Shown piece after piece: positions 18,941 through 63,296 of a DNA stretch of 64,000 bases. Under the pieces are notes generated by a model that was given only the letters and a program-made list of their open reading frames with translations, was not told the DNA's origin and searched no databases. Both the position numbers and the translations under genes were made by a program. The DNA is from Planctomycetales bacterium (GTDB taxonomy: Bacteria > Planctomycetota > Planctomycetia > Isosphaerales > Isosphaeraceae), in assembly GCA_027449865.1 (NCBI GenBank), contig DAIDKV010000082.1, forward strand, positions 1 to 64,000. The letters are read 5' to 3'. Position 1 is the first letter of the stretch. The number at the start of each line of letters is the position of its first letter.

Positions 18941-19149
18941 AGACCAGCGATCCGCGGGTTACCCGGCCGCCGCGCCGGACTCGATCCGAGATCGGGGACA
19001 TTTTGACCTGGCTCCACACGTCGTCAAGCGGTTTTCCGGGTCCGAGTGATCGGAAATCCGGAGTCGGATGTCGATTTTTGTGGAGCGGAACCGAATTTGC
19101 TGGAGAGTGGAACCGCTTTCACGGATCGAGAAACGAGAGGAACACGGCG

Positions 19150-19803
19150 ATGACTCGGCCTTATCGTGTTGTGATCGCGGACGACGAGAAACCAGTCGCG
19201 GTCGGACTGCAAAACCAACTGGAATCGCTGGGCTATGACGTGGTGGCCGTTGTCCACGATGGCCAGCGTGCCATTGAGATGTGCCGGCGAACCCTTCCCG
19301 ACGCGGTGTTCATGGACATCGAGATGCCGGGCCTGGACGGGCTTTCGGCGGCCCGCCAGATTGCCGTCGATCCCGGGACGCCGGTCATAATCCTGACGGC
19401 CCATGGCCACCCCAACCTGATCGATCAGGCGGTGGAAGACGGTGTGATCTCTTACCTGCTCAAGCCGGCGACCAATCCCAGCCTCCATGCTGCCGTGCAG
19501 GTGGCGGTGGCTCGAGCGCGTGAGCTGAAGGCGCTTCAGGAGGATGTCGACGAGCTGAAGACGACCCTGCGGGAGCGGAAGCTGATCGAGCGAGCCAAGG
19601 GGATATTGATGTCGCGGCGCCACCTCAATGAAAGCGAGGCGTTCCGGCTGCTCCAGCGACAGAGTCAGGATCGTCGCATTCCGATGGCGAAGCTCGCCGA
19701 GTCCATTATCCAGACCGACGAATTGCTTGAAGCTCCCAACCAGGCCGGGGCGGCCGGTTTGCGGCCACTCCGCCGCCATTCCGACCTGCCGCACGGGGAG
19801 TAG
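19150..19803 (+). CDS. ANTAR-domain response regulator (AmiR/NasT-type)
   Basis: A 217-residue two-domain regulator. The receiver domain occupies residues 1 to about 120, with ADDEKP (acidic pair), VFMDIEMPGLDG (phosphoacceptor Asp), VIILTAHG (Thr) and YLLKPAT (Lys). A short helical linker leads to an ANTAR domain (about 140-200) containing LIERAKGILMSRRHLNESEAFRLLQ, the three-helix RNA-binding bundle that prevents transcription termination by stabilising leader hairpins. The start ATG at 19150 has GAGAGGAA eight bases upstream; the track start is 49 codons too early. A small BON-like gene and a histidine kinase follow on the same strand, so the kinase may phosphorylate this regulator. The RNA target is unknown. 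Confidence 0.92.
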   Translation: MTRPYRVVIADDEKPVAVGLQNQLESLGYDVVAVVHDGQRAIEMCRRTLPDAVFMDIEMPGLDGLSAARQIAVDPGTPVIILTAHGHPNLIDQAVEDGVISYLLKPATNPSLHAAVQVAVARARELKALQEDVDELKTTLRERKLIERAKGILMSRRHLNESEAFRLLQRQSQDRRIPMAKLAESIIQTDELLEAPNQAGAAGLRPLRRHSDLPHGE

Positions 19804-19815
19804 GGGTTTGACGCC

Positions 19816-19860
19816 GTGCTGGTCCCTCGGTATGATTTTTGATACTCGGAGGGACCGCAC
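19816..19860 (+). terminator. Long hairpin directly after the ANTAR regulator gene
   Basis: GTGC-T-GGTCCCTC pairs with GAGGGACC-GCAC, and an inner GTAT/ATAC pair continues the stem around an AT-rich loop (GATTTTTG). The element starts 12 bases after the stop codon. It would be a strong structure in RNA, but the downstream sequence (GGAACGGAAAGG) lacks a T-tract, so it may be a processing site, a regulatory hairpin or a Rho-independent terminator of atypical form. Confidence 0.55.
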
Positions 19861-20049
19861 GGAACGGAAAGGTCCATCGGGCCCTCCCCGGTTGGGTCGC
19901 AGTCTTTCTTCCGACGAATGAGACGGCCGGTCGGGTTCAAGGATGGTACGAGCCGGGCTCGATATCCAACAGGTCGCAACTATCCTCGACTCCCGCCCTC
20001 TCCCTCTCGCGTGATGGGCGGCCCCTCTCCAGGGACGCCGCCTCGACAG

Positions 20050-20334: not shown

Positions 20335-20448
20335 CTGTGGGGATCGAGCGGCGACCTTGCCCCGCGGTGGACGGCTTCCAGCCGACAAACGACCATGCGG
20401 AGGATTCCCCGGAACTCGATCGACCGCACGGAGCAGGGAAAACAGGCC

Positions 20449-21213
20449 ATGGATGTCCGATCCAGGGGGATACCGAGCACTGGGAGCCATCCGCTCCTGA
20501 TCGACCGAGGTGAGCTGCGCTCGGTGCTTTCGAACCTTAGCCACGAGCTCTGCCGGCCTCTCACCTCGCTGAAGGCCGGATTCGACCTCTTGCTCGGCGA
20601 ACCGGCGGCCACCTTCACGGCCGACCAGCGAAATCACATGCAGACCATGGTCTCGCTCTGCGATGATCTTCTCCGGCTGACTCGGAGCTACCTCGACTAC
20701 GCCGGGCTGGTGCAGGGATCGCGCCCGCTTTGCCTCGGACGCTTCACAATCGCCGCGATGATTCACGAGATCGGGCGTCAGTTCGGCTCGGCCGCCGCGG
20801 CTCGCCAGGTCCAATGGGAGGCCCGGGTCGAGGCTTCGCCCGATGCGGCGGTGGTCACCGATGCCTCACGCTGCCAGCAAATCCTGGGCAATCTTGTCAC
20901 AAATGCCCTCAAGTACACACCGACCGGGGGCCGGATCGAGGTGGTGGGACGTCTCGAGGGCGATTCCTGGTCCGTCACTGTCGCCGATTCAGGCCCGGGT
21001 ATCCCACCCGATGCCCTGGAGATGGTCTTCGAGCCCTTCTTCCGACTGGCCCGCGACGAGCATTCCGGGGTGGAAGGAAACGGCCTGGGGCTGGCGATCT
21101 GTCGCGAACTGGTCGCCCAGTTGCAAGGGTCGATCGCGCTGGCCTCGGTCGTCGGCCAGGGTACCTCCGCCACGGTCCGGTTCCCGATCGAGATCCAGAC
21201 GGTCGATACCTAG
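20449..21213 (+). CDS. Soluble sensor histidine kinase
   Basis: A kinase of about 254 residues (272 if the upstream ATG at 20395 is used; neither has a strong ribosome-binding site). There is no membrane segment and no recognisable sensor domain before the HisKA region SNLSHELCRPLTSLKAG, which holds the phosphoacceptor His. The ATPase domain has LGNLVTNALKY (N box), VADSGPGIP (G1), VFEPFF (F box) and GNGLGLAICRELV (G2). A cysteine replaces the more usual Arg/Leu after HEL in the H box. It is downstream of the ANTAR regulator and the small BON-like gene, so the three may form one phosphorelay locus. Signal input would have to come from a partner protein. Confidence 0.9.
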   Translation: MDVRSRGIPSTGSHPLLIDRGELRSVLSNLSHELCRPLTSLKAGFDLLLGEPAATFTADQRNHMQTMVSLCDDLLRLTRSYLDYAGLVQGSRPLCLGRFTIAAMIHEIGRQFGSAAAARQVQWEARVEASPDAAVVTDASRCQQILGNLVTNALKYTPTGGRIEVVGRLEGDSWSVTVADSGPGIPPDALEMVFEPFFRLARDEHSGVEGNGLGLAICRELVAQLQGSIALASVVGQGTSATVRFPIEIQTVDT

Positions 21214-31027: not shown

Positions 31028-32148
31028 ACGACGTTGTGGGTCGGTTGCGGACCGAGGTCATCGAGCCGCTGAAGCGGCGATTCGTCGGGCGGGATGAGGT
31101 CATCGACCTGATCGCGCTGGCGGTCGCCGCTGGTGAGCACCTGTTCCTCCACGGTCCGCCCGGCACCGCCAAGTCGGCTCTGATCCGTCAGTTCGCCTCC
31201 GCCGTGCGCGGCCATTATTTTGAGTACCTGCTGACCCGGTTCTCCGAGCCCAACGAGGTCTTCGGTCCGATCGACCTGATCCGGCTCCGCGAGGGGACCG
31301 TCGCCACCGTGACGACCGGGATGCTTCCCGAGGCCGAGTTTGCCTTCCTCGACGAGCTTTTCAACGCGAACAGCGCCATCCTGAACAACCTTCTCACGGT
31401 CCTCAACGAGCGGACCTACCGCCGGGGCGCCGAGGTCCACGCGCTCCCGCTGCTCTCGATGTTCGCCGCCTCGAACCACCTTCCCGAGGACGAGGGTCTA
31501 CGCGCCCTGTTTGACCGATTTTTGCTTCGATGCCACATCGACAATCTTCGACGTGAGGAAATGCCTCGACTGCTCGCGGCGGGCTGGGAGCTGGAGCGAT
31601 CCGAGCCGATTGAGTCGAGCGTCACCGCGGCCGACCTTCGCGGGCTCTCCCGGCGGGTCTATCAGGTGAACATCAACGGCATCGCGGAGCGGTTTGCCGA
31701 GGTCGTCTGGAAGGTGCGCGACATTGGCATTGGGCTGACGGATCGGCGCGCGGTCAAGGTTTTGAAGTTGGTAGCCGCCTCGGCGCTGCTCTGCGGGCGT
31801 GTCGAGGCGCGGGTCTCGGACCTCTGGGTATTACGCTACGTCTGGGACCGCGAGGAGCAGGTGGCCCCGCTCGCCTCGATGATCGCCGGGGTGGTCGAGC
31901 CCGACTCCGGCACGGCCGGGGCCCATCCAATGGCTGTCTCTCCCGAGCGGGTGGAACCGGAGACAATGGCCCGGCATCTCGACCGGATCGCCGCCGAAGT
32001 CGCAAGTCGACGGCCAGGCCTTGCCGACGCGGCACGCCTTCGTGAGCAGCTCTGCGACCTGGCCGACCGCGCCGCCTGGCTGACCGACGACCGCGCCCGT
32101 CAGCATCTGATCGATCGAGCCCGGACCCTTCTCTCCGAACTCGGCTAG
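31024..32148 (+). CDS. MoxR-family AAA+ ATPase
   Basis: A 374-residue AAA+ protein. Walker A is GPPGTAKS at residue about 41; EFAFLDELFNAN is Walker B with the adjacent sensor helix; LLTVLNERTY and FAASNHLPED (sensor 1) are typical of the MoxR/RavA branch; DRFLLRC contains the Arg finger. MoxR proteins remodel partner proteins, classically together with a vWA protein. The start ATG overlaps the upstream stop (ATGA). It is second in the cassette, 18 bases before the next gene, which has GGGAGGA as its ribosome-binding site. In bpX systems the ATPase is thought to power a complex with the vWA and propeller proteins; direct activity is not shown here. Confidence 0.93.
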   Translation: MNDVVGRLRTEVIEPLKRRFVGRDEVIDLIALAVAAGEHLFLHGPPGTAKSALIRQFASAVRGHYFEYLLTRFSEPNEVFGPIDLIRLREGTVATVTTGMLPEAEFAFLDELFNANSAILNNLLTVLNERTYRRGAEVHALPLLSMFAASNHLPEDEGLRALFDRFLLRCHIDNLRREEMPRLLAAGWELERSEPIESSVTAADLRGLSRRVYQVNINGIAERFAEVVWKVRDIGIGLTDRRAVKVLKLVAASALLCGRVEARVSDLWVLRYVWDREEQVAPLASMIAGVVEPDSGTAGAHPMAVSPERVEPETMARHLDRIAAEVASRRPGLADAARLREQLCDLADRAAWLTDDRARQHLIDRARTLLSELG

Positions 32149-63068: not shown

Positions 63069-63296
63069 TTACCCGACCGTGATGTTCTCGGCGAAGCATT
63101 CGCCCGAGAGAAGCTCGAGCGCTCCGTGCATGGCAAGCTGCTTGGCGTGTCGCGAGGGAACCTGGCCGCTGACAATCACCTGGCCCCGTTCTTCCTTCAC
63201 GACAAGGTTCCGGATCCGGCCGTGCGTGAACTGGCGGACCCTGGCCTCCACCTGCTGGGCCAGGCTGGTTCTGGCCTCAGGAGCATTCAAAATCAT
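63069..63296 (-). CDS. Small BON-like protein, paralogue of the 20.1 kb gene
   Basis: A 75-residue protein without signal peptide. The segments VEARVRQFTHGRIRNLVV, ERGQVIVSGQVPSRHAKQLAMHGALEL and a final FAENITVG strand follow the same order as the 86-residue protein at 20074-20334, and both share GRIR and HAKQLA in aligned positions. It looks like a BON-type fold. The ATG at 63296 is used; the track adds 23 residues. The preceding ribosome-binding site (GAGAGTGG) is only moderate. Function is unknown; the paralogue lies in a signalling locus, this one does not. Confidence 0.7.
   Translation of the reverse strand: MILNAPEARTSLAQQVEARVRQFTHGRIRNLVVKEERGQVIVSGQVPSRHAKQLAMHGALELLSGECFAENITVG

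Follow-up and report, generated by a model that had tools for sequence, protein, structure and literature searches.

The 64,000-nt stretch of DNA analysed here (the window), from a genome whose relatives belong to the Isosphaeraceae of the Planctomycetota, carries a hairpin immediately after the gene for a response regulator with an RNA-binding ANTAR domain, which raises the question of what this structure does for the genes on either side of it. The initial annotation, made by eye from the sequence, placed the hairpin at 19816–19860 and suggested that it is either an atypical terminator of the regulator gene or an RNA control element for the genes that follow, which encode a BON-like protein and a histidine kinase (Table 1). 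The order ANTAR, BON-like and kinase recurs in most family members whose ANTAR orthologue was fetched, and relatives of the BON-like protein are found in 43 of 45 family genomes when weak paralogue matches are counted. A ribosome-binding-like segment, GGGAGACTGGC, stands ahead of the BON-like gene. A second weak BON-like reading frame lies on the minus strand of the window at 63087–63269, with 33% identity to the 86-residue protein.

Table 1. Coordinates of the features around the hairpin and the basis on which each was assigned.
Feature	Position	Strand	Basis
Response regulator, receiver and ANTAR domains, 217 aa	19150..19803	+	Pfam Response_reg 4.7e-26, ANTAR 2.6e-22
-35 element TTGACG	19808..19813	+	Promoter consensus scan; TTGAC in 27/27 orthologous leaders
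Inverted repeat (long hairpin)	19814-19862	+	Fold; 19 pairs around a T-rich loop
Arm A, 5' arm of the long hairpin	19814..19833	+	Fold; in promoter spacer and -10
-10 element TATGAT	19831..19836	+	Promoter consensus scan; conserved across orthologous leaders
Arm B, 3' arm of the long hairpin	19842..19862	+	Fold; at predicted start of the downstream transcript
Leader stem B:C, 5' half, GGAGGGACCG	19848..19857	+	Covariation; folds in leader; inside 3' arm of the long hairpin
Leader stem B:C, 3' half, CGGGCCCTCC	19878..19887	+	Covariation; leader fold
Conserved leader block, here GGCCGGTCGGGTTCAAGGATGG, family form GCCGGTTGGGATCAAGGATGG	19925..19948	+	Alignment of 12 leaders
BON-like protein, 86 aa	20074..20334	+	Weak Pfam BON, E 0.0042, below cut-off
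Histidine kinase	20395..21213	+	Pfam HisKA, HATPase_c

The hairpin is real and as strong as had been supposed. Folding of 19800–19880 gives −39.7 kcal/mol against a mean of −25.0 kcal/mol for shuffled sequences (z −4.9), none of the 200 shuffles is as stable, and after correction for G+C content the site ranks second in structure among the 60-nt places of the 64 kb window. The top-ranked 60-base stretch on the same scale is 31070–31130, at −39.5 kcal/mol. The 5' side of the hairpin begins ∼10 nt past the stop codon of the ANTAR gene and consists of CCGTGC (19814–19819), a T bulge, GGTCCCTC (19821–19828) and GGTAT (19829–19833); the 3' side consists of ATACT (19842–19846) and GAGGGACCGCACGG (19849–19862), with 19847–19848 internal and unpaired. 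The place originally given is thus correct, and its extent falls slightly short on both sides. Because the hairpin sequence is present as a single copy in its own genome, a dispersed repeat or mobile element was rejected as its source.

The initial annotation overlooked a promoter lying partly on the 5' arm and loop of the hairpin. A consensus scan finds a sigma-70-type promoter, TTGACG-17-TATGAT, at 19808–19836, and the 5' arm lies between and on its two hexamers. A TTGAC...TAnnnT promoter is present between the ANTAR and BON-like genes at every one of the 27 Isosphaeraceae loci that hold the ANTAR–BON pair with a complete leader, while shuffled leaders give 0.1; the spacer is 17 bases in 25 of these loci and 18 in the other two, so that hexamers within the 16–18 base spacing expected of a sigma-70-type promoter occur at the same place in the orthologues. 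Elsewhere the intergenic region differs widely among the family loci, so that a promoter kept in all of them argues strongly for function, and it is probably the functional element for the BON-like and kinase genes. It resembles known sigma-70-type promoters in combining TTGAC with TAnnnT at a typical distance of 17 bases, immediately ahead of a putative operon, in 27/27 loci; it differs from them in that the family −10 element is mostly TAGnCT or TAnnCT (patterns TAnnCT/TAnnnT) instead of TATAAT, and its start is a predicted one. As a control element for the downstream genes, the site was located and its targets were named correctly at the outset, whereas the object was not, the conserved features being the promoter and a leader stem described below. 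The locus thereby gives an exact, family-wide promoter for a BON-like/histidine-kinase pair adjoining an ANTAR regulator, and a hairpin spotted by eye beside the gene of an RNA-binding regulator turns out to be mainly promoter, that is, mostly ordinary gene-control sequence.

We consider it likely that the site is a separate promoter for a BON-like/kinase mRNA with a 5'-proximal stem, to which the large hairpin is an addition in a small clade. On this account, the family-conserved promoter directly after the ANTAR response-regulator gene would drive transcription of the BON-like and histidine-kinase genes, which we infer to form an operon, as an mRNA of their own, with a predicted start near 19843, placed by rule, and a leader of ∼230 nt. 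Transcripts of sigma-70-type promoters begin 5–9 bases beyond the −10 element. At its head the leader would carry a stem-loop whose most likely role is to protect the mRNA 5' end from decay, as in ompA. In the small clade of the window, the promoter spacer also matches arm B of the leader, which produces the long inverted repeat. Arm A lies in the promoter spacer and the −10 element and would be absent from RNA started at this promoter; the long hairpin could form only in DNA or in RNA reading through from the ANTAR gene.

Conservation of pairing in relatives, the point on which the initial annotation had staked its hairpin, is where the long stem and the promoter part. In an alignment of six close relatives, we found for the long stem no conserved pairing with compensatory changes, the very outcome that the initial annotation had set as refuting its proposal: the covariation score of the stem equals the shuffle mean and is reached by 289 of 500 shuffles, one pair shows a double change, 9 of the 19 pairs depart only through unpaired cells, and the stem is broken in congeners L103 and L104. 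Strong hairpin pairing is confined to three near-identical congeners and one neighboring genus, and DNA similarity to the region to two congeners. Across the 27 loci, pairing between spacer and leader beats that of shuffled spacers only in L100–L102 and L105, and marginally in L110; L105, which comes from another genus, has one compensatory change relative to L100. The big hairpin is best read as arising from an upstream match to one arm that is specific to the lineage, and as a by-product or refinement, limited to this clade, of the promoter and leader stem. A function particular to the lineage is possible because the hairpin is strong in this genome and present, with the compensatory change, in a second genus.

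The same comparisons bear on two other roles for the hairpin. A strong stem so soon after the stop codon might end transcription of the ANTAR gene, as an intrinsic terminator or by the hairpin alone, and we regard this as very unlikely. As first noted, there is no T-tract: the T-run sits in the loop, the sequence 3' of the 3' arm is AACGGAAAGG, and neither strand has a T-tract after the stem, so that a G+C-rich stem followed directly by a T-tract was not found at this hairpin. The one match of a terminator scan there, 19815–19834, combines the T-run of the loop with another and weaker stem. Nor is the pairing kept in congeners, and all of the relatives (27/27 loci) have a promoter at the overlapping site; the proposed terminator is not supported. 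Alternatively, the long dyad could be an operator: a repressor dimer would bind the inverted repeat, whose center falls just 3' of the −10 element, and so block the promoter in this clade. The dyad center, ∼19838, overlaps the −10 element and the start, a usual position for a repressor, and the arms are nearly unchanged in three congeners. However, congeners G002 and G004 retain the promoter and lack the dyad, and of six genomes only two have the exact GGTCCCTC...GAGGGACC dyad at this promoter, each of them lacking it elsewhere. As the exact dyad is thus not repeated in the genome, an operator common to several promoters was rejected, and one acting at this promoter seems to us distinctly unlikely.

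The leader itself points to a different, shorter structure at the predicted start. In a sliding profile over 25 loci, the folding z-score reaches its minimum exactly there, averaging −1.76 across the 60 nt that start at +1; it dips again, less deeply, ∼90 bases downstream and stays close to 0 in most of the remaining stretches. In the close relatives, the stem involved is B:C, in which two pairs show compensatory double changes in a six-sequence alignment; 1 of 500 shuffles attains the covariation score of this stem. When the partner is slid by +1 column as a control, the score is similar (0.187) despite fewer paired cells (65% against 87%), and for this reason the covariation test is supportive rather than final. 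The stem in the window itself is no more stable than shuffles (z −0.29); the case for a leader stem therefore rests on the family average and the six-sequence alignment. Taken with the promoter data, these alignments suggest that a start-proximal leader stem probably follows the promoter and is conserved more weakly than it. Stem-loops at the 5' terminus stabilize mRNA (Emory et al. 1992, as cited in PMC7509114). Like the ompA-type 5'-terminal stem-loop, B:C would begin within a few bases of the transcript end, going by the predicted start, and appears to keep its structure while its sequence changes; unlike it, the stem of the window is not unusually stable, and its stabilizing role is one that we infer.

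Competition between the two stems would amount to a read-through switch, in which arm A captures B in transcripts from the ANTAR gene and prevents B:C, while RNA from the internal promoter pairs B with C, leaving the two mRNAs with different stability or translation. In L100–L102 and L105, B can pair with either A or C, and where L105 differs at one position, all three arms carry matching changes. Against this, L103 and L104 lose arm A and keep B:C, and the read-through transcript is a presumed one, none being known. We judge such a switch highly improbable and retain the promoter with its 5'-proximal stem as the preferred reading.

The gene neighborhood also invites the idea that the site is an RNA target through which the ANTAR protein controls the BON-like and kinase genes. 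Published ANTAR targets consist of two small hairpins with six-base loops that have A at position 1 and G at position 4 (PMC3369931, PMC8164766). The site resembles the dual-hairpin targets of EutV, NasR and AmiR in adjoining the gene of an ANTAR response regulator; it differs from them in that such tandem hairpins are not above chance and there is no terminator. Tandem hairpins of this kind were not found in the leader of the window, and over the 27 leaders single six-base-loop A1/G4 hairpins number 9 against 9.8 expected in shuffles, with a tandem pair in just one leader, which agrees with the early remark that the single large stem is unlike such a target. A search with Rfam covariance models gave no relevant match in the window or in 19 relatives, and in the literature searched we found no paper describing targets of planctomycete ANTAR proteins. 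The conserved leader block does contain AAGGAT/ACGGAT, with A at 1 and G at 4, and yet forms no conserved hairpin; taken together, an ANTAR-binding RNA target that controls the downstream genes appears extremely improbable here. Just upstream of the ANTAR gene, at 19083–19122, are two neighboring small hairpins with loops ACCGAA and ACCGCT (A1, G4) and the linker GGAGA; they resembled an ANTAR target and were rejected as one, as relatives do not keep them.

RNAalifold found no convincing local hairpin in the leader block. It did hint at pairing of the block with the bases before the start codon, and a permutation control rejected this: the best pairing of start region and leader averages −14.0 kcal/mol with a species' own start region versus −14.6 kcal/mol with those of other species. 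It is conceivable, and on balance unlikely, that the ∼230-nt leader is an undescribed Isosphaeraceae cis-regulatory RNA composed of the 5' stem, the GCCGGTTGGGATCAAGGATGG block and the fixed GGGAGACTGGC-ATG, which the neighboring ANTAR protein might possibly recognize by a mode other than tandem hairpins. The block is a concrete place to test for planctomycete ANTAR targets. The mid-leader GCCGGTTGGGATCAAGGATGG is strongly conserved, the GGGAGACTGGC segment is fixed before the BON-like start codon, and matches to the block in other genomes fall mostly at this same leader.
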